DNA from: Fibrobacterota bacterium | GTDB taxonomy: Bacteria; Fibrobacterota; Fibrobacteria; UBA11236 | NCBI GenBank assembly: GCA_023249635.1 | Contig: JAHFCH010000039.1 | Location: 1 to 37,216 of the forward strand | Length of the DNA stretch: 37,216 bases | Reading direction: 5' to 3' | Notes under the pieces: model-generated | Seen by the model: only the letters and a program-made list of their open reading frames with translations | The model's database searches: none | Told to the model about the DNA's origin: nothing | Program-made: the position numbers and the translations under genes | In this document: piece by piece, positions 4,788 through 31,875 of the stretch | Numbering within the stretch: position 1 is the first letter of the stretch | Layout of the letters: every line of letters starts with the position of its first letter

Positions 4788-7019
4788 TCAGCCCGCGTCA
4801 GCCAGCGTGGTTTCCAAATCTTCCAGCAACATGCCGGCGCGATCGTTATCCGTCGTAGACTGGGCTCCCAGAGCGGCCGCCAATGGCATGGCGGTTTGCG
4901 GCGCCGTAGCCCGCGGGGTCCTCTCTTCGCGGCCAATCCGGGGCGCGGCCGACCAATCGGAAGCGGGCAGGATATGCAGGGGCCGATTGGCGGTAGCCGG
5001 GGCCGGTTCCTTGGCCGGGATCTCGGCGGTCCGGGCGAAGGCGGGTCGGGCGTGGTAAGCCGGATCGGGCATCTGCTCGGGCACGGTTACGGGCGCCCGG
5101 CGCAGCAGGCTTTGCAGCCGGGGTAACGCCAAGGTTTCCTGAGCGGATCCGAACTCAAAGCGCTGCAACAGCCGGTTCAGCTTCCATTCCGTGGTATCCA
5201 GGTTGACGTAATGTTGGAAAGTCTTGAGCGCGCCCAGGGGCCGGCGCGTCTGCCCGGGATCGAGTTCCCAAGGATGCAGGTAGACCATGGCGGGCAAGCC
5301 GCGGCGGTTCTGCTGCTCGATGAAATTCTCGGTCACCTGGCTGGGATAGAGGCGCAGGTAGCCGCCGCCGGCCACGGGCAGGCGACGCCCGCCCATACGC
5401 ATGGTCGACATGGGCAGTTCCGTGAGGGAGCGGCCGCCGGGCAGCTTCAGGGTGTGCGGATTCAGGTTGGGCCAATTTTCGATACCGTAGCGCTTGCGCG
5501 CGATGGGGAAGATGCTGGAATCGTATTGGATGCCATGGCGGGCCATGATCTCGAGAGCCCACAGGGTCGAGGAGACCACGCTGAAATTGGAAGCGCGGTG
5601 GCCGCGGATGCGTTGCGAGGTGCTGCGCGCGATGGCCTCCAGGGAACGGAGCAGATCTTCCTCGAATTCGCCCGGGGTCATTTCCGTGATCAGATCGTGG
5701 TGGTATCCGTGGGTGCCGATTTCATGGCCCTCGCGGTCGATCATGCGGACCACTTCCGGAAAGCGATCGGCGACCCAGCCGAGCACGAAGAAGGTGGCCT
5801 TGGTTTCATGCGCGCGCAACAGATCCAGAAGCTTTTCCATGTTCCTTTCCACGCCCGAGGCGAGCGTGTGCCAGGAGCACTTGGGCGCCACGGAGCGCAT
5901 ATTATAGGCGTGGAACCAGCATTCCACGTCGACGGTGAGGAAGTTGCGCACCGTCTGGGAAGAGTGCTGGAGTTCCAGCACGGAGTCGAGGCGGATTTCG
6001 TGGAGGATCTTGCGGACCTTCAGCGAGGCGTTGCGCAGCTCCAGACGGCCTCCATGGCGCTTGACCTTGTGGGCCAGTCCGACCAGGAATCCCACATCCT
6101 CGAGATCGAGATGTTCCCGGGCATGCACGATGACTTCCGGCGCGGGGCGCCCGGTGAAATCGAGGGAGTCGAGGCGGGCCGACATCTCGGCGGCATCGCA
6201 GCCGGCGAGCACCAAAGGCCGCGCGGACCGGCCGAAGTTGATGGCCACGCGGGAATGCGCGACGGCGGAATCGGCCGCGGCGCGACCGCGGAAAGGCAGG
6301 CGCATGGCGCGCTTGAGCCCGCCCAGGTCGCGGGTCTCCCCTTCGAAGCTGGGCTTCTGCGCCAGGTACAGGACCGTATTCCACACGATCCACATCTCCA
6401 TCTTGATCCAAGCGGAAAAGCTGCAGAAAGAGGCGCGGTACGACATGTCGAAATGGGTCTTGCGCACCACGCTATCCAGGGAGTCGTCGTAGCCAAGCAT
6501 TATCTGGGCCAACCCTGTGAGCCCAGGCCGTATATACCGGGTGCGATCGGAATAATGCGGAAGGGTTTCCCCGTACAGGCGGGTGAAATGGGGCCGCTCC
6601 GGACGCGGACCGATCAGGCTCATATCCCCGCGAATCACGTTCAGGAACTGCGGGATCTCATCGATGTGCAAGGCACGCAGCCACTTCCCGATGCGCGTCA
6701 CGCGTGGGTCCAGCCCTTTGGCGCACAATTGCGGTCCCGCCACCTCGGCGTCGATGCCCATGGTGCGGTATTTCCAGATGCGGAAGGGCTTGCCGCCCAC
6801 GTCGGCTTTGCGCCGGTCCGGTCCGTTCCAGGCTTGGCCTCTTCGCGCGCGCCGGTTGACGCCCACGCGTTCCTGCGAGTAGAGCGCAGGTCCCCGGGAT
6901 TCGGTCTTGATGAGAAGCGCAACCACGGGGTGGACAAAGGACATGATGATCATACCGACCGACCCGGCCAGCAGATCCAGGAAACGTTTCGCCATTGCGA
7001 CAGGCCATGCAGGTTTCAT
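4788..7019 (-). CDS. fusion: bacterial sugar transferase + STAS-like domain + PEP-CTERM-type polysaccharide deacetylase
   Basis: One uninterrupted 743-residue frame carries three domains. Residues 9-235 are a polyisoprenyl-phosphate sugar-1-phosphate transferase catalytic domain: AKRFLDLLAGS with a membrane helix, GKPFRIWKYRTM (76-87), HIDEIPQFLNVIRGDMSLIG (118-137), GPRPERP and RPGLTGLAQI. Residues about 258-350 resemble a STAS domain (HLDLEDVGFLVGLAHKVKRH, then GGRLELRNASLKVRKIL), but the usual DSSG phospho-site reads EDVG. Residues 360-625 match the DUF3473/PEP-CTERM-locus deacetylase type: FLTVDVECWFH with Asp364, GTHGYHHD with metal-binding His437 and His441, RGHRASNFS, and LHPWELD. The last 110 residues are Pro/Ala-rich and probably disordered. 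It should prime an exopolysaccharide on undecaprenyl phosphate and trim acetyl groups. It is divergent from a PrsR-like regulator. Confidence 0.9.
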   Translation of the reverse strand: MKPAWPVAMAKRFLDLLAGSVGMIIMSFVHPVVALLIKTESRGPALYSQERVGVNRRARRGQAWNGPDRRKADVGGKPFRIWKYRTMGIDAEVAGPQLCAKGLDPRVTRIGKWLRALHIDEIPQFLNVIRGDMSLIGPRPERPHFTRLYGETLPHYSDRTRYIRPGLTGLAQIMLGYDDSLDSVVRKTHFDMSYRASFCSFSAWIKMEMWIVWNTVLYLAQKPSFEGETRDLGGLKRAMRLPFRGRAAADSAVAHSRVAINFGRSARPLVLAGCDAAEMSARLDSLDFTGRPAPEVIVHAREHLDLEDVGFLVGLAHKVKRHGGRLELRNASLKVRKILHEIRLDSVLELQHSSQTVRNFLTVDVECWFHAYNMRSVAPKCSWHTLASGVERNMEKLLDLLRAHETKATFFVLGWVADRFPEVVRMIDREGHEIGTHGYHHDLITEMTPGEFEEDLLRSLEAIARSTSQRIRGHRASNFSVVSSTLWALEIMARHGIQYDSSIFPIARKRYGIENWPNLNPHTLKLPGGRSLTELPMSTMRMGGRRLPVAGGGYLRLYPSQVTENFIEQQNRRGLPAMVYLHPWELDPGQTRRPLGALKTFQHYVNLDTTEWKLNRLLQRFEFGSAQETLALPRLQSLLRRAPVTVPEQMPDPAYHARPAFARTAEIPAKEPAPATANRPLHILPASDWSAAPRIGREERTPRATAPQTAMPLAAALGAQSTTDNDRAGMLLEDLETTLADAG

Positions 7020-7082
7020 CGCGAAGTTCTCCAGGCTTTTAGTGGCCCCCGGCCTTCTCCCTCAGGTTTTCGTTCCTGCGGG

Positions 7083-7112: not shown

Positions 7113-7372
7113 GGGTGGGTGCGTAGGGATAATTAAAACTTCCTGCGGGCAAGATGGGACTTGAAATCCGACGCTTCGCGGACGCGCTATATGGGGCGAA
7201 TTAAGGGCTATGCCGCGGGGCCGGGAACGGGGTGTACCGATAGGGACATCAATCGCGCTTGCACCCGTCGGGGAATTTATCTTAACCGAAAGGGTAAGCC
7301 ACCGCGCGGCAAGCCCACAACCGTAAACGTCTCATCATTCCCGATCAGCCGTTATCCGGGGAAAGGGGTACC

Positions 7373-8749
7373 ATGCAAGATACCATGGCCATGAGCAAGC
7401 TCATTCTCGTCGAGGACGATGGGGGCTTGCGGGAACAATTGAAATGGGCGCTCGGCGAACATTTCCGGATAGTGGTGGCCGATTCACTGGATTCGGCGCA
7501 GGCGGCCCTGGAAGAGGAGGGATCGGGAGCCGCTCCCATCGTCTGCCTGGACATGGGCCTGGAAGGCCATGCCGATAGGGGCCTGGAGGTCATCGATGCC
7601 ATCCTGGCCTCGGACGCTTCCGCGAAAATCATCGTAATCACCGCCAATCCCGATGCCGCCATGGCCCGGGAGGCTTTACGCCGCGGCGCTTTCGACTACC
7701 TGGCCAAACCGCTGGACGTGGAAGCCCTGCAGGCCTCACTGGAGCGGGCCGAGCGCTTGCGTCAGCTGGAGGGAAGCGCGGAGGAGCATGCGGGTTGGAG
7801 CCCGGTAGCCTCTGAACAGATACTGCTGGGCGAAAGCGATGCGATGCGGACTTTGGTTTCCTCCCTGGAACGCCTGGCAGGGACCGACGTGGGCGTGGTT
7901 TTCATGGGGGAAAGCGGATCGGGCAAGGCGACTTGCGCCCGCGCCCTGCATATGGCCAGCCGGCGCGCCGTCCACTCCTTCTTGTCGGTGGATTGTTCTT
8001 CCCTCCCCGAGAATCGTCTGGAACAGGATCTCTTTGGTCCCGACGGCCAACTCGAATCGGCGCATCAAGGGACTTTATACCTGGCCGGTATCGACTCGGC
8101 GGGGCCTTCGCTGCAAGCCCGCTTATGGCGATTCCTGCAGGATGGCCGCGTGACCAGGCCGGGAGAGTCCCGGAGCAGGGTCCTGGACGTGCGGCTCGTA
8201 TGCGGCACCCAGCACCCGGTTCTGGCGGGTGGTGACGGCGGATTGCGGCCGGATTTGCAACATCGCCTGTGCGAATTCGAAGTGCGGGTCCCGCCTTTAC
8301 GGGAACGCGGCCGTGACGCGTTGCTCATCACCGAGGCCATCTTGGAACGCAACCGTTCGCGGTTCGGGAAACCGCGCCTGCATCTTTCCTCGCGGGCCGA
8401 GAAGGCTATCCTGGCCCATGGCTGGCCGGGCAATGTGCGCGAGCTGGAGAACCGGCTCAACCGGGCCTGCGTCGTATGCGCGGGGCAGGTGATCGAGGAT
8501 ACCCACCTTGAGTTGGACGGTTCCGGCGACACGACCCAGAGCTATCGTGAGCAGCGTAAGGCCTTCGAGAAGAACCTGCTCGTAAACGCCTTGCGCCGCG
8601 CCAACGGAAACGTCTCCTTGGCCGCGCGCACGGTGGGCGTTACCCGCCCCACGTTCTACGACATGATGCGCAAGACCGGTATCTGGATCCGTAACGCGAC
8701 CAAGGTCGCGGACTCCGGCGAAGCCTATCCCGACGACGGCATGGCCTAG
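7373..8749 (+). CDS. PrsR-like (PEP-CTERM-box type) NtrC-family response regulator lacking GAFTGA
   Basis: A 458-residue protein with the NtrC layout. Receiver (8-125): acidic pair in ILVEDD, phospho-acceptor Asp60 in VCLDMG, Thr90 and Lys112 in YLAKPLD. AAA+ (about 150-380): Walker A GESGSGK (179-185), PPLRER and WPGNVRELENR. C-terminal Fis-type helix-turn-helix (NGNVSLAARTVGVTRPTFYD, 411-430), which resembles PrsR of exosortase EPS loci. Oddities: only ten residues separate DLFG (219-222) from GTLYL (233-237), about half the usual number, so the GAFTGA loop that contacts sigma-54 is absent. The Walker B acidic pair (normally LFLDEI) reads LYLAGI. ATP turnover and sigma-54 remodelling are therefore doubtful. 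It is divergent from the EPS fusion gene, its likely target. GAAAGGGG precedes the ATG. Confidence 0.88.
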   Translation: MQDTMAMSKLILVEDDGGLREQLKWALGEHFRIVVADSLDSAQAALEEEGSGAAPIVCLDMGLEGHADRGLEVIDAILASDASAKIIVITANPDAAMAREALRRGAFDYLAKPLDVEALQASLERAERLRQLEGSAEEHAGWSPVASEQILLGESDAMRTLVSSLERLAGTDVGVVFMGESGSGKATCARALHMASRRAVHSFLSVDCSSLPENRLEQDLFGPDGQLESAHQGTLYLAGIDSAGPSLQARLWRFLQDGRVTRPGESRSRVLDVRLVCGTQHPVLAGGDGGLRPDLQHRLCEFEVRVPPLRERGRDALLITEAILERNRSRFGKPRLHLSSRAEKAILAHGWPGNVRELENRLNRACVVCAGQVIEDTHLELDGSGDTTQSYREQRKAFEKNLLVNALRRANGNVSLAARTVGVTRPTFYDMMRKTGIWIRNATKVADSGEAYPDDGMA

Positions 8750-16369: not shown

Positions 16370-17020
16370 TTAACCGCGGAGCGGGCGCCGGCCGGCCCAT
16401 GCAAGCCAGGGAAGGCCGCCCAGAAGCAGCCACGCGGCGGCGGGCTCGGGCACGGAAGCGACCGGAGGTTCGCTGGAGACGGAACACAGGTAGAGGTCGG
16501 AGCGCACATCCCAATCGCGTCCCGCATCGTCATGGCTCAGGTTGAAGCCCAGGAAGCCCGATTGTCCTTCGCTCCAGTCGGAAAGCACCGCGCCTTCGCG
16601 CAGCACGGAGACGAAATCGTAGCCGGACTCGTCCATATTGCTGCCCACGAGTTGGGAAGAAGAGGCGCCGAACTCGACGAGATTATATCCGTAGTAGTGG
16701 TGGAAGCGGTTCCAGACCGGGGTTCCGGTCCCGTCGTCGGCGAAGGCGGTGCCCGCGGTGAAGTCCGCTAGGAAGAAATCGTAATACACATCATCCGCGG
16801 CGGATCCGATATCATCGACCGGGTCCATGGATCCAGCGGAGTTGATGGTCCCCCCAAGCGCGACGTCGGCCATGAACAGGTATTTGATCTGCATGCCTAC
16901 GGCATAGTCAGGCGCATTCGAGGCGGTGACCGAACCTTCGAAGAGGTAATAGACCGGAGTGGCGTGTAGTTGGGCGGCGGCGAACAGGATCGATCCGGCG
17001 AGCAGGGCGTTAAAACGCAT
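16370..17020 (-). CDS. PEP-CTERM sorting-domain protein (exosortase substrate)
   Basis: A 216-residue protein with signal peptide MRFNALLAGSILFAAAQLHA. The mature region is acidic and Tyr/Phe/Asp/Gly-rich (VYYDFFLADFTAG, RFHHYYGYNLVEFG), typical of PEP-CTERM proteins. The last 27 residues are a textbook sorting signal: VPEP, a hydrophobic span (AAAWLLLGGLPWLAWAG), then Arg-rich RRPLRG. An exosortase would cut after VPEP and hand the protein to the cell surface or extracellular matrix. No exosortase gene is in the window, so one must be elsewhere. The fusion at 4788, the PrsR-like regulator and the CAAX-type protease fit the same system. Confidence 0.9.
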   Translation of the reverse strand: MRFNALLAGSILFAAAQLHATPVYYLFEGSVTASNAPDYAVGMQIKYLFMADVALGGTINSAGSMDPVDDIGSAADDVYYDFFLADFTAGTAFADDGTGTPVWNRFHHYYGYNLVEFGASSSQLVGSNMDESGYDFVSVLREGAVLSDWSEGQSGFLGFNLSHDDAGRDWDVRSDLYLCSVSSEPPVASVPEPAAAWLLLGGLPWLAWAGRRPLRG

Positions 17021-25266: not shown

Positions 25267-25371
25267 AACAGGGTTCTATGAGAAATTCGATGCGGAGCAT
25301 CGTAGGCCTGGCGCGTCCCGACGCGGCAGAATGTCCCCCTTATCCCCGTCCGGAGGGTGGAGCGACCTTGC

Positions 25372-28300
25372 GTGCCTAATCGCCATTTTCGCAAACCGGA
25401 TCGTTCCCTCCGGCCTTTGCATCGTCTTTTGTTTCCGCTCTTCGCATGCATCGCATTAGCCGCGATTCCCGGCCGCGCGATCTACATCGAAGGGCAATCC
25501 TACCTGACGCTTCCCGATCCCGCCCATCCCTTGGATGAGTTGCTTCCGCAAAAAGGCGTGGAGAGCACCAGCGGCCACGGCATGCTGCAAGTCAACAGCG
25601 TGTACCTCAAGCGCCGGCACAACGTCAATTTCGAAACGCGCCAGGTGGAAATCATCCGCTACGTGGGATTGCCCCCGGGCGACGCGCAACCGGGCTCCCA
25701 GGATTCCACGCCCATGTGGCAGGCGTATTACGTCGAGCTCAACTCGTACACCATGGATATGAGCGACCTGGCGCTGCGGCGCTTATGGCTTAATCAGTTC
25801 ATCGGCAAGGACGACGCGTCCCAGGCGGGCGGCCCCGGGATGTTGGACATCGTGCTCCCCGTGAACGTTCCCGATTGGATGAAGCGCATCGGCGTGGACA
25901 AGCCCCGGCTGCGCATCAACGGCTCGTACAAGCTGGTGGTGGAAGGGACCGGCGTGCAGGGCAACGGCGCGCCCAACGGCGGCGGATCGTTCTTTCCCAA
26001 CTTGCACATGGATCAGCAGCCCGCCTTCTCGGTGAAGGGATCCATCGGGCGGCTCATCAACATCGAGATCAACAGCGAAGAGGGTTTTGGTACCAATCTC
26101 AAAGAGCAGTTGAAGATCACCTACAAGGGCGAAGGCGACGAACTCGAGGACGACGTGATCCAGGAGATCGAGGCGGGCAATACCTCCCTCGCCCTGACCG
26201 GCACCAGCCTTACCGGTTACACCGAAGCGCACAAAGGCCTTTTCGGCCTCAAGATGCGCATGAAGTTCGGCGGGCTGGAAGTGACCACCATCGCTTCGCA
26301 GGAAGGCGGGTCCCAGGAGCGCCAGAAGCTGGGCGTGGGCACGGTGCTTTCCGATGCGGTACGCGAGGATCGCGACATCGATCTGCACAAGCATTTCTTC
26401 CTGAAGCTGACGGATAGGGAGGCCTACGGGAGCGTAAGCAACTGGGAAGGCAATTCCCCGCGCTATCTGGAAGACGGCCGCGGCCGCGATCCCGTGCTGG
26501 TGTTCCAGTTCCTGGGGCAAGGCGAAGAGGTTACCATCAAGGACAGCGCCGTAGCGTGCCCGTATACGCGCGACGGCGGCCCCATCAACGAGCGTTGCGA
26601 ACCCGGACGCTGGAAACGCCTCACCAGCGGCACCGATTTCTTCTACGACGATCGCATGCGTATGCTTACGGTGCCCGGCGGCAACCGCAATATGTCCATC
26701 GCCGTGCGCTGGACGGGCGATTTCATCGCCAGCCCCACCGATCTTTCCAAACTCATCCTCATCCACTCGCGGTCGGCGGTGGGTGTGCCCGAACTCGACG
26801 ATCTCATGTGGCGCAACGTCTACGGCATCAGCCGCATCTCCAAGCAGGACAAGGAAAGCTTCCGCTTGCGCATGGTCAAGAATTCGGACAGCACGGAACG
26901 GGATCAGAACGATACCATGACCTTCATCCGCAAGCTGGGCATGGAAAAGACGGACAAGCCCGGGCAGCCCGACATCGACAACCCCATCCTGTTCAACCTG
27001 GAACAGGGCTACATGGTGCTGCCCTGCCGGGGCGGCATCAGCCGCGCGGACGATTCCGCCAATTGCCTCACCCCCATGAAGCGCGTCAACAAGACCACGT
27101 CCATCTACGACCTGAACGTGGACGAGATCCAGAACGGATCGACCGTGCACAAGTTCGTCATCACCGGCAAGCAGCGCAAGTCCACCTTTGACGTGCGCGA
27201 GACTTCGCATTCGGTGAGCGGCTCCCAGTGCATCGATATCGAGAAGGACACGGAAAAGCTGATCCTGAACGGATCGACCGAGCTGAAGCGCAACGTGGAC
27301 TACGAAGTGCTTTACGAGACGGGGCAAATCACCCTCATCTCGCCCCGCGCCAAGGATCCCAACGCCGACATCGACATCAGCTACGAGTGCAATCCGCCCT
27401 TCCAGATCCAGGACAAGATCTTGTTGGGGACGCGCCTGGAGTACAAGCTGGACGGGATTTCGGACGAGAGCCTGTTGGGCGCGACCCTGTTGTACAAGAG
27501 CCAGAGCACCACCGCAGAGCGCCCGGAGCTGGGCCGCGAGCCTTTCAACCAGTTCCTGTGGGGATTCAATGCGCGCCTGGCCGGCGCCCCCAAGTGGATG
27601 ACCAGCGTCGCCAACCTGTTCCCGTTCGTGCAGACCGAGGCTCCCTCGCGGGCCAATTTCGAATTCGAAGTGGCGCAGAGCCGGTACAACCCCAATACCA
27701 AGGAAAGCGCCTATCTGGACAATTTCGAAGCCAGCGAGAACGTGCTTTCCATGCCCATGTTCATCTACAACTGGTACAAGGCCTCGCCGCCCGACTTCGA
27801 CGACAACGGCAAGCCGGACGAAACCCTCGACTTCCGCCACCAGGGGGCCTTCGTCTGGCATTCCAGCCGCAAGGAACTTTACTCCCACATCTACGGGCAG
27901 ACCGGCAACGCCTACACGGACAGCCGCGAGCAAACCTTGCTGCAGATGACCTTGCAGCCCAACGACAACCTGGAAGGCCGCTCTTGGGGCGGCGTGATGC
28001 GCGCCATGAGCGCCGGCCTTTTCAACCAGAGCAAGAAGCGCACCCTCGAAGTGGTGGTGTACGGCAACCAAGGCACCCTCTCGGTCGACATGGGCCAGAT
28101 CTCCGAGGACATCAGCATCTCCGGCGTCAAATCCGGCGAGCCTGACAAACAGCTGGAAAGCGAAATCGATCCTACGCGTGAGACCATCAACCGCTTCGAT
28201 TACGGGTTGGACAAGAAGAAGAGCGACGCGGGCGAAGTGGGCGCGCGTTGGGAATGCAAGCCCTCGTGCTATTCCATTCCCCTGGACGAAAACAATCGCG

Positions 28301-31300
28301 ATCCCGGTGGGGACGATTTCGCCCAGCCGGTGGGCGCTACCGAAGAAGCCGCCACCGTAAACGGCACCGAAGGCAACAACAAGGGATCGGGCGGGTATGC
28401 CTATGACACCGAGGATCTGGATCATTCCGGCACCCTTGATCAGAAGAACATCTACCTACGCTACGTGATGTCCCTGGACAGCGCTTGCCTTCCACGCTTC
28501 CATTGCGAAGAGATGAAGAGCGGCTGGCGCAAATACCAGATCCCACTGTACGGATCGGGATCCCGTATCGGAGCCAACGCCGGGGAGAGCGAAACCCAAA
28601 TCCTCTCCAACGTGAAGATCATCCGCGCCTGGATCGGCCATCTACCTTCCCGGGTAACCCGGGCGCAGGCCCTGATGGCGCGCCTCAACCTGGTCGGCAA
28701 CAACTGGGAAGAAGGCGATCGCAACCGCGACTTCGAGATTGACGCGGATCGCTTCGCGACCGGGGACTTGCATGACAGCGCCGCCGTGCACGTAGCGCCT
28801 ACCGTCACCGACAGCAATCGCCTCAAGGTGGCCGTGATCAACAAGCAGGAGGAGCGCCGCTACCTGCCTTCGCCCAACACCAAGATCGAGCGGGATACCC
28901 GCACCGACGAGCCAATGCCCGAGCGCTCCCTGGTGTTGCGCTACGAGAACCTGCACCGCGGCGAGGCCGTCGGCGCCACGCGCCTTTTGGGGAGCGAGCC
29001 CAAGGATCTGACCCTGTACGATCGCATCCGCATGGAAATCCATCCCGATTCCAATTCCATCCCCGGGCAGGAAAATTTTAAGCCGACCCAGAACCGGGTG
29101 AGCCTGGGGCTACGCTTGGGCAAGGATCAGGGTAACCGCGACTCAAAGGATTATTACGAAATCCGCATCCACATGGATACCCTCGGCAAGTACGACAAGA
29201 AGCACACCTTCCTGTGGGATCGGAATTCCTTCGACGTGCGCATGTCCGATTTGACCGGGCTCAAGGTCAATGAGCTCTACAGCCCGATCAAGACCAGCCC
29301 GGTAAGCCGGCAGGCTTATCATTCCGGACGGGATGACTCTTCCCTGACCCTCTCCGTGGTCGGCAACCCCACGCTCTCACGCGTGGATTGGATGCGCCTG
29401 GTCATTTACGTCGATTCCGGGGCCGGCGATGTGCAAACGGGCGAAATCTGGGTGGATGATTTGCGGCTGGAAGGCGTGGACCATAGCCTGGGCAGCAGCA
29501 TGCGTACCCAGCTCCAACTGGACTTCTCCGATTTCGTGAACGTGTCCGGCAACCTCACCTACCGCAACGGCGGCTTTACCACCATGAGCGAGACCAAGAC
29601 CACGCCGGCCAACAGCCAGACCACGGTGGATTACAACACCAACCTCGGGGTCTTCGCGAACAAGGTCTTCCCGGATCAATGGGGCATCAGCATCCCGCTC
29701 TCGCTGCAGTACCACGGCGCCATCAACCGGCCCTTTACGCGGCCGTCCTCGGACCTGACCCTGCGCGGCACCGATTTCATGGACATCGTACGGGACGTGG
29801 CCGACGACCACCTTACCGTGCGGGACACCATCGATAGCAAGGAAGATATGAACAGCCGTTACGCGCGGGTGTACCAGACCACGGTCTTCGAGGAAAAGCT
29901 TTCGGCCGCCTACAAGAAGGAGCATCGCTCTTCCAGCTACATCAACCAGATCGTCTTCGAACGGCCGGATCTCCAGTACTCCTTCTCCAGCTCCAAGCGC
30001 AACGAATTCTTCACCAACAGCAACAGCCGCAATTACGATACCAAGGCCATGTACAGCCTTTCGCCCTTCGAGAACAAATCCTATAAGCCGCTCTCGTCCA
30101 CGGAAAAGTGGCGGCTAATGCCCACCTTCCTTTCGGGCGTGGAATTCACGCCCTATCCGGACAAGCTGAACCTGACCGTGGGCGATCTCTCCTTCGTGCG
30201 TACCGAGACCCTCAACAAGCCCCGCAACGAGCAAGACCAGCCCCTGGTGCTGCCGCCGCAATACGCCTTGGAGCTGACCCATGGCGTGGATCTGGAATGG
30301 CGCCTGATAACCTTCCTGAATTTCGGTTTCCGGCTCGCAGTCGATCGCGACTTCGACAATGAGCATGAGTGTTTCGACGAGACCTTCTTCGGCCAAGAGG
30401 ATGGCGATTGCGGCAACGGCGGCGACGGCGGCCTGTTCGCGCATAACCTGATCTTCGACATGGACAATCAGGATCGCAATCCCGGCCATCTGGGCGAGGA
30501 GTACGGGATCTTGTACCGCGAAAGGAACCGCACCCAGAGCTTCCACCTGGACTTCAATCCCAGCGTATTCTCGTGGCTTACCACCGGGGCCAATTTCAAT
30601 TCTGGTTTCCACCAGACGCGCTCCGATTCTACCAAGGACCGCGACAATATCGTCACCAGTCCGGAACATTTCGAAGCCGACGCCGATCACGACGTGAAAC
30701 TGAACACTTCCCTGAGCCTATCGTCTTTAATCGGGCCCGCCGGGGATGGCAAGGGAGTGCTCGGCTCGATTCGGAAAAAGGTCGAAGATTGGCGCCTGCG
30801 AAACATTGACCTCAGTTATTCGGTGGGGCACAAGTACAATAAAGAAGAGTTCACTTACCAGTACCTCTCGGAAACGAATACCTGGGCGGATTATTACGCC
30901 TACCAGTTAGGTTGGGTCTACGATACTCCTGGTGATTTCTTCGGCACTCTTTTTGATGGCGAGCCGAATCCATATTGGATGGATTACCTCATGGCACCCG
31001 ATCCGAATATTCGTGCCACGTCGCGATTTTCCCATGGAGTGACCCGAAGTTGGGATGCCGGGTCGGGCTTTACCGTACCCTGGCTCGACCTGGGTATTTC
31101 GGCCAACGTCAAGTACACCAAAGAGTACACACTGTTCCGGGCACTTACCGCCAGCGACACTTCTGTGGTGTGGCCCGATCTGACCGTGACGGGAACCTTC
31201 AACGATTTCGCCAACAAGATCCCGATCCTGCGTAAGACCTTCCGTTCCATGACATCGACCACCACCTTCAATATGCGCAAAGAGGAAAAGCACGCACTAT

Positions 31301-31875
31301 TCTCCGCCGCTCCGGAAACGGACAAGATCTCTTACAAACTGGATCCCCTGGTGCGCTTGGCTGCGACCACAAACAAGGACGTGCGTGGGGAACTCAGCTT
31401 CAAGGGTGGGTTGGACCGGGCCAAGGATTACGGGAAAGATGACGGAACCTTGTTGCCTTATCGATTTTACATAGACACCGTACATCAACTGGGATACTAC
31501 CGCGACAAAAAAAAGGTCACCCAGCGCGATGCGTTCAATACCGGCGGCGACGCCACCATCTCGTACGACGTGGAAACCCAGAAAGGCATCCAGTTCTGGC
31601 GTTATTACGTGAAGCTGGAAAACAATCTGCGCTTGAAACTGACGGGCAGCGCCAATTACATGTATACCGAAGTCACCCTGCCCGCGAGCGACCATGCGCG
31701 CAAGGACCAGAACGTATTGACCCTGACTTGTAAGCCCGAAGTCTCTTATAATTTCACCAATAACGTCGACGCGTTGTTCTACTCGCAGTACAAGTACGAC
31801 AAGCTTTGGCATACCCCCAAAGAGGAATCCACCCACGAGCTCACGGTCCATGGCGAATTCACCATGCGATTCTGA
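25372..31875 (+). CDS. sprA: T9SS outer-membrane translocon protein SprA
   Basis: 2167 residues. I chose GTG at 25372 because GTGGAG lies nine bases before it; the in-frame GTG at 25357 is too close to its GGAGG. Signal peptide: HRLLFPLFACIALAAIPGRA. SprA landmarks: FSVKGSIGRLINIEINSEEG (about 220), DVIQEIEAGNTSLALTG (about 263), GLFGLKMRMKFGGLEVTTIA, YLDNFEAS (about 780) and GEIWVDDLRLEG (about 1360). These mirror the VNGKVGDKL, IEAGN, DDFEGS and W(L/V)xxLRLxG blocks of the family. The C-terminal 800 residues alternate strands and end in FTMRF, as in a barrel protein. SprA forms the very large T9SS pore and is needed for gliding in Flavobacterium. Length is slightly below the usual 2300-2500. 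The stretch 30700-31700 looks less GC-rich. Confidence 0.93.
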   Translation: MPNRHFRKPDRSLRPLHRLLFPLFACIALAAIPGRAIYIEGQSYLTLPDPAHPLDELLPQKGVESTSGHGMLQVNSVYLKRRHNVNFETRQVEIIRYVGLPPGDAQPGSQDSTPMWQAYYVELNSYTMDMSDLALRRLWLNQFIGKDDASQAGGPGMLDIVLPVNVPDWMKRIGVDKPRLRINGSYKLVVEGTGVQGNGAPNGGGSFFPNLHMDQQPAFSVKGSIGRLINIEINSEEGFGTNLKEQLKITYKGEGDELEDDVIQEIEAGNTSLALTGTSLTGYTEAHKGLFGLKMRMKFGGLEVTTIASQEGGSQERQKLGVGTVLSDAVREDRDIDLHKHFFLKLTDREAYGSVSNWEGNSPRYLEDGRGRDPVLVFQFLGQGEEVTIKDSAVACPYTRDGGPINERCEPGRWKRLTSGTDFFYDDRMRMLTVPGGNRNMSIAVRWTGDFIASPTDLSKLILIHSRSAVGVPELDDLMWRNVYGISRISKQDKESFRLRMVKNSDSTERDQNDTMTFIRKLGMEKTDKPGQPDIDNPILFNLEQGYMVLPCRGGISRADDSANCLTPMKRVNKTTSIYDLNVDEIQNGSTVHKFVITGKQRKSTFDVRETSHSVSGSQCIDIEKDTEKLILNGSTELKRNVDYEVLYETGQITLISPRAKDPNADIDISYECNPPFQIQDKILLGTRLEYKLDGISDESLLGATLLYKSQSTTAERPELGREPFNQFLWGFNARLAGAPKWMTSVANLFPFVQTEAPSRANFEFEVAQSRYNPNTKESAYLDNFEASENVLSMPMFIYNWYKASPPDFDDNGKPDETLDFRHQGAFVWHSSRKELYSHIYGQTGNAYTDSREQTLLQMTLQPNDNLEGRSWGGVMRAMSAGLFNQSKKRTLEVVVYGNQGTLSVDMGQISEDISISGVKSGEPDKQLESEIDPTRETINRFDYGLDKKKSDAGEVGARWECKPSCYSIPLDENNRDPGGDDFAQPVGATEEAATVNGTEGNNKGSGGYAYDTEDLDHSGTLDQKNIYLRYVMSLDSACLPRFHCEEMKSGWRKYQIPLYGSGSRIGANAGESETQILSNVKIIRAWIGHLPSRVTRAQALMARLNLVGNNWEEGDRNRDFEIDADRFATGDLHDSAAVHVAPTVTDSNRLKVAVINKQEERRYLPSPNTKIERDTRTDEPMPERSLVLRYENLHRGEAVGATRLLGSEPKDLTLYDRIRMEIHPDSNSIPGQENFKPTQNRVSLGLRLGKDQGNRDSKDYYEIRIHMDTLGKYDKKHTFLWDRNSFDVRMSDLTGLKVNELYSPIKTSPVSRQAYHSGRDDSSLTLSVVGNPTLSRVDWMRLVIYVDSGAGDVQTGEIWVDDLRLEGVDHSLGSSMRTQLQLDFSDFVNVSGNLTYRNGGFTTMSETKTTPANSQTTVDYNTNLGVFANKVFPDQWGISIPLSLQYHGAINRPFTRPSSDLTLRGTDFMDIVRDVADDHLTVRDTIDSKEDMNSRYARVYQTTVFEEKLSAAYKKEHRSSSYINQIVFERPDLQYSFSSSKRNEFFTNSNSRNYDTKAMYSLSPFENKSYKPLSSTEKWRLMPTFLSGVEFTPYPDKLNLTVGDLSFVRTETLNKPRNEQDQPLVLPPQYALELTHGVDLEWRLITFLNFGFRLAVDRDFDNEHECFDETFFGQEDGDCGNGGDGGLFAHNLIFDMDNQDRNPGHLGEEYGILYRERNRTQSFHLDFNPSVFSWLTTGANFNSGFHQTRSDSTKDRDNIVTSPEHFEADADHDVKLNTSLSLSSLIGPAGDGKGVLGSIRKKVEDWRLRNIDLSYSVGHKYNKEEFTYQYLSETNTWADYYAYQLGWVYDTPGDFFGTLFDGEPNPYWMDYLMAPDPNIRATSRFSHGVTRSWDAGSGFTVPWLDLGISANVKYTKEYTLFRALTASDTSVVWPDLTVTGTFNDFANKIPILRKTFRSMTSTTTFNMRKEEKHALFSAAPETDKISYKLDPLVRLAATTNKDVRGELSFKGGLDRAKDYGKDDGTLLPYRFYIDTVHQLGYYRDKKKVTQRDAFNTGGDATISYDVETQKGIQFWRYYVKLENNLRLKLTGSANYMYTEVTLPASDHARKDQNVLTLTCKPEVSYNFTNNVDALFYSQYKYDKLWHTPKEESTHELTVHGEFTMRF

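Follow-up and report, generated by a model that had tools for sequence, protein, structure and literature searches.

Can the enzyme that primes an exopolysaccharide (EPS) and an enzyme that modifies it work as a single polypeptide, and if so, on which side of the membrane and under what control? This question is raised by a gene on a 37,216-nucleotide contig from a Fibrobacterota bacterium (hereafter the window), which a first-pass annotation described as a fusion of a phosphoglycosyl transferase (PGT), a STAS-like module and a deacetylase of the type associated with XrtA exosortases. The gene is a single unbroken ATG-to-stop frame of 743 amino acids on the minus strand (Table 1), with GC contents by codon position of 0.65/0.47/0.80, a coding-type pattern. 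A 641-amino acid plus-strand frame opposite it was rejected as a shadow on the same measure (third-position GC 0.64). Pfam and NCBIfam searches of the 743-residue translation recover all three modules in the one frame, with matches to Bac_transf (E 6.6e-45), Polysacc_deac_1 (E 2.8e-20) and DUF3473 (E 4.5e-39), the STAS part being weak. Both active sites were described as intact, and this holds for the window protein and for every complete copy in related genomes: the Asp-Glu dyad and GPRPE motif of the PGT are preserved in all four paralogue groups (A-D, below), as are the D-x-E, HxxxH, GHR, YDSS and HPWE motifs of the deacetylase.

Table 1. Coordinates of the fusion gene, its encoded domains and its upstream elements in the window.
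Feature	Position	Strand	Evidence
Fusion gene, paralogue group A, 743 aa: PGT / STAS-like / XrtA-type deacetylase / tail	4788..7019	-	Frame, Pfam/NCBIfam, codon-position GC
Small monotopic phosphoglycosyl transferase (PGT), aa 1-222	6354..7019	-	Re-entrant helix 5-40 (K11-R12, P31), Asp-Glu dyad D120-E121, GPRPE 137-141
STAS-like domain, aa 256-353 (about)	5961..6254	-	Predicted elements b-b-a-b-a-b-a-b
D305-L306-E307-D308, counterpart of the STAS DSSG phospho-site	6096..6107	-	Profile alignments
XrtA-type polysaccharide deacetylase, NodB/CE4 + DUF3473, aa 359-630	5130..5945	-	D364, E366, H437-x3-H441, R475, H582 present
C-terminal tail, aa 650-743	4788..5072	-	Poor conservation, predicted disorder
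GGAG, likely ribosome-binding site, ten bases 5' of ATG	7029..7032	-	
GGTTAAGATAAATT, box kept 5' of three group A orthologues	7274..7287	-	
TTATCCCTACGC, second group A upstream box	7121..7132	-	

The PGT-deacetylase fusion is confirmed as real. The same genome encodes four fused paralogues, namely the window gene (group A) and genes on contigs C244 (group B), C293 (group C) and C298 (group D). Among five other genomes of the genus, groups B, C and D are present in all and group A in three, a few copies being cut by contig ends, and each of the six genomes has three or four fusion copies. These further copies, in the same genome and in the five others, argue against an assembly error. That the frame is an assembly artefact, or two genes read through by chance, can be set aside with near certainty, given that fused frames recur across four paralogue groups in six genomes, with conserved junctions and with conserved neighbours specific to each group. 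In a profile search of 168 Fibrobacterota genomes, a PGT and a deacetylase shared one frame in the six genomes of this one genus only; the recurrence expected of a genuine architecture is thus seen, and the fusion is conserved and, in the phylum as sampled, confined to one genus. TIGR03006-type genes elsewhere in the phylum are, among the matches listed, mostly stand-alone frames of about 280-330 amino acids. Apart from Fibrobacterota and the locus of the sister genus, a contig scan, which reaches close relatives only, gave one match, to a deacetylase of Fimbriiglobus that has no PGT. Another kind of fusion, between a TIGR03006-type deacetylase and a family 2 glycosyltransferase, was observed in G003 (contig C20; L091:8818-10536), where a FemAB gene adjoins it and the contig also carries the exosortase, some 40 kb distant, and in Fimbriiglobus (L047:423-2339), where the domain call was made by reading the sequence.

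The first-pass annotation had compared the gene with those of exosortase-linked EPS loci, but its neighbours are not EPS genes: they encode a glutamine amidotransferase, an NtrC-type regulator, a CAAX protease, an agmatine-deiminase-type (PAD_porph) enzyme and a nitrilase. The neighbours of each paralogue group are conserved across genomes, and for groups A, B and C they are largely housekeeping genes. Group B is flanked by MnmG and citrate synthase and group C by MoeA and an RlmL-like methylase, with no EPS genes among the conserved neighbours of either. Group D is closely followed, on its own strand, by a gene with partial resemblance to NhaD antiporters (L086:10571-11713 and L089:10613-11758). 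An exosortase is encoded in all six genomes of the genus, as are PEP-CTERM proteins, away from the fusion gene, and no exosortase was detected in the three sister-genus genomes searched. This co-occurrence of exosortase and fusion is suggestive only, because it represents one evolutionary event. Elsewhere in the window, an ORF at 16370-17020 on the minus strand carries a C-terminal PEP-CTERM sorting signal (C263:16385-16453; 18.2 bits, over the cut-off, E 0.051) and has no Pfam match, and a very long open frame of 2172 amino acids occupies 25357-31875 on the plus strand.

Upstream, the NtrC-type response regulator gene (7373-8749, plus strand) is divergent from the fusion gene, an adjacency that occurs in three genomes of the genus (the window, L092 and L093). 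The GGTTAAGATAAATT and TTATCCCTACGC boxes lie in the intergenic region between the two genes and were found with group A orthologues only, GGTTAAGATAAATT being absent 5' of groups B-D. A sigma-54 promoter 5' of group A was considered and rejected, the one weak site falling within the coding region of one orthologue.

The PGT domain matches Bac_transf (PF02397) with 153.3 bits against a cut-off of 27, and in profile comparisons with solved monotopic PGTs it matches PglC (E 2.6e-23) and WbaP (E 4e-21). These two enzymes share the catalytic domain with its Asp-Glu dyad and the re-entrant helix, but unlike the fusion have no deacetylase or STAS domain. The match to the XrtA PGT model TIGR03013 (EpsB_2), at 160.8 bits, is well below the cut-off of 393.35 and is confined to the model's catalytic end; the large XrtA PGTs are a different subfamily from the fused PGT. 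Residues 1-45 are the sole consistently hydrophobic stretch of the fusion protein, a helix at 201-220 being borderline in two group B copies, and no transmembrane helix was seen after the N-terminal re-entrant helix. The Lys-Arg and Pro features of the N-terminal helix are, on comparison with PglC, those expected of a re-entrant helix. In the stand-alone XrtA-type deacetylases of the phylum, the catalytic D-x-E follows the start by only a few residues, and there is no signal peptide. Because the PGT helix is re-entrant, no later transmembrane helix follows and the stand-alone relatives lack a signal peptide, the PGT and the deacetylase should, as judged from sequence, both face the cytoplasm. 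The oddity raised at first, a transferase working inside the cell tied to a deacetylase of a kind that often works outside, is thereby dissolved. ArnD and NodB are cytoplasmic enzymes of the NodB/CE4 fold, ArnD acting on an undecaprenyl-linked sugar, and they provide a precedent for a NodB-fold deacylase inside the cell, although they have no attached PGT and belong to a different subfamily. The full-length AlphaFold model (mean pLDDT 58.7) is too poor for judging domain packing.

The deacetylase domain exceeds the cut-off of the NCBIfam XrtA deacetylase model TIGR03006 (294.9 bits; cut-off 276.2). The family motif D-x-E-[DE] reads D-V-E-C in the fused clade (Cys367 in the window protein, Ser in one copy), and the replacement of the third acidic residue by cysteine might alter metal binding or activity. 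All three domains are under purifying selection in groups A and B, with dN well below dS between orthologues in the PGT, the STAS-like region and the deacetylase, some group B dS values being near saturation. The C-terminal tail is not conserved between orthologues.

The middle domain, assigned at first to residues 258-350, is probably STAS-like. Its position was correctly given, but its sequence scores, 14.8 and 16.3 bits (E 0.012-0.025), are below the Pfam cut-offs of 22.6 and 29.2 (PF01740/PF13466). Pfam STAS matches at E <= 0.05 were obtained for nine of 14 relatives, with a best E of 0.0012, and hhalign against STAS proteins of the same genome gave a probability of 78%. A profile search of PDB sequences returned eight weak matches (0.009-0.58), including TM1081, RsbV, TM1442 and SpoIIAA, with an unrelated protein as the top match. 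A model of the isolated region (134 residues, pLDDT 65) has the STAS order b-b-a-b-a-b-a-b. In structure searches it reached a VIA Z of about 7 to SpoIIAA and TM1081, and the best Foldseek E (0.009) was to APOBEC1; because APOBEC chains score as high as STAS chains, the fold comparison alone is not decisive.

The usual DSSG phospho-site of this domain had been read as EDVG (307-310). The loss of the phospho-site stands, but the register does not: in profile alignments the true counterpart lies two residues earlier (305-308), with G310 as the second glycine of DSSGxG. Every copy seen with the domain has D-L-[ED]-[ED] here, and none has a phosphorylatable Ser or Thr at this position. With acidic residues here in all the copies seen, a classical phospho-switch is not possible at this site; of the proposed signal-responsive or partner-binding roles of the module, partner binding may still apply. 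In group D, the STAS domain is absent and a linker of about 50-80 residues connects the PGT to the deacetylase; a remnant of the domain in this linker was not supported (hhalign probability 0.2%). The STAS-like domain is therefore not needed to couple the two enzymes, and was either inserted in the ancestor of groups A, B and C or lost from group D.

It is conceivable, though improbable, that the STAS-like domain is a regulatory receiver on which a partner, an anti-sigma-like kinase or another protein, would toggle priming, the acidic residue replacing the phosphoserine. The Glu or Asp at the phosphoserine position in every copy seen would fit such a role, as would two precedents: EpsW, a response regulator, binds and stimulates the PGT EpsZ (PMC12802240), and SypA, a lone STAS protein that is active when unphosphorylated and whose target is not known, controls Vibrio biofilm formation (PMC4517449). 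However, none of the genes beside the fusion gene of the window was recognised as encoding a partner, group D is without the domain, and an acidic residue need not mimic phosphate. With SypA, SpoIIAA and RsbV the fusion shares the predicted STAS-type order of strands and helices, with weak profile matches to the latter two, but its STAS-like domain is covalently part of the PGT protein and has no phosphorylatable serine.

A tree of the deacetylases (a quick tree with SH-aLRT support) unites the fused copies and those of the sister genus in a single clade (100), in which the latter sit next to group A (97). Given this nesting, the simplest account is that the sister genus lost the catalytic domain of the PGT and the STAS-like domain. 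Both G007 and G008 keep the deacetylase without a PGT. In G008, 41 residues of the re-entrant helix survive ahead of the deacetylase, scoring 87 where shuffled sequences reach at most 40, and the gene adjoins EPS-type genes, namely a Wza-like export gene, a tyrosine autokinase and a FemAB gene; this helix retention and EPS-type setting are consistent with a deacetylase that acts on the inner face of the membrane. No significant helix remnant was found in G007 (score 33, shuffle maximum 41). A half STAS domain at the end of the lone PGT of G010 was likewise not supported, its score not being above shuffles, and a second G010 copy is cut by the end of its contig.

That the two functions are encoded separately in exosortase loci, as had been stated, is borne out by the XrtA loci of Alteromonas and Vibrio plasmids, where the deacetylase gene starts 2 and 4 bp after the TIGR03013 PGT gene and is followed by xrtA or a FemAB gene. 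The fusion thus joins what is elsewhere an operon pair. XrtA/PEP-CTERM EPS loci have the same two functions in the same order, but as separate genes within an EPS operon and with a large PGT of about 470 amino acids, whereas the fusion is one protein with a small PGT, encoded at orphan loci and in several copies.

A less favoured explanation is that the fusion serves co-expression and co-localisation only. The deacetylase would then act further along the pathway, on an intermediate that other enzymes produce, and the STAS-like domain would be an inert spacer. This would agree with the adjacent separate genes of other XrtA loci, the linker of group D, the deacetylases retained by G007 and G008, and a STAS-like region that, in most pairs from groups A and B, is less conserved than the PGT or the deacetylase. 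An inert spacer is harder to reconcile with the purifying selection on the STAS-like region (dN 0.03 and dS 1.1 between the group B copies of G002 and G003) and its 25 invariant columns in 11 copies, more than expected.

Bifunctional monotopic PGTs are a named class, Bi-PGTs, in which, as outlined in PMC10942596, a monotopic PGT core carries another functional domain at one end. The present protein has this organisation, its PGT core sharing one frame with another functional domain in six genomes. The partner here is a DUF3473 deacetylase of the XrtA type, in most copies separated from the PGT by a STAS-like domain. What appears to be new on sequence grounds is this partner, as Bi-PGTs are already known as a class. 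A full-text literature search for a PGT with a polysaccharide deacetylase returned one paper, which by its title and abstract concerns another subject; the class-defining survey was outside its reach, and an earlier mention is possible.

The reading that we favour, with a probability of roughly 0.55, is that the protein is a bifunctional, membrane-anchored priming enzyme. A small monotopic PGT, anchored in the inner leaflet by its re-entrant helix, would move HexNAc-1-phosphate from a UDP-sugar onto undecaprenyl phosphate, and the tethered cytoplasmic CE4/DUF3473 deacetylase would strip the N-acetyl group from this initial sugar, or from the lipid-linked oligosaccharide as it grows, ahead of the outward flip. 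The STAS-like domain would serve as a non-phosphorylatable spacer or as a docking or dimerisation module. We infer the location of the deacetylase, the order of the reactions and the role of the STAS-like domain, and, because the fused genes lie outside EPS loci, membership of an EPS pathway is taken from family only. The substrate of the deacetylase could alternatively be a longer lipid-linked oligosaccharide or a nucleotide sugar.

In the literature searched on exosortase-linked EPS, neither the substrate nor the membrane side of the DUF3473 deacetylase was found stated, and DUF3473 was not mentioned. That several copies are joined to a priming transferase yields a concrete, testable claim on both points, namely that the deacetylase works on the cytoplasmic face and on an early lipid-linked sugar. 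More speculatively, the fusion may commit the cell to a de-N-acetylated amino sugar as the first residue on the undecaprenyl carrier, with the permanently acidic STAS-like domain as a docking site that controls initiation. If this were true, a natural fusion would suggest that lone STAS regulators, SypA among them, target the initiating PGT. The presence of a STAS-like domain in the same chain also provides a direct route to asking whether STAS proteins act on priming.
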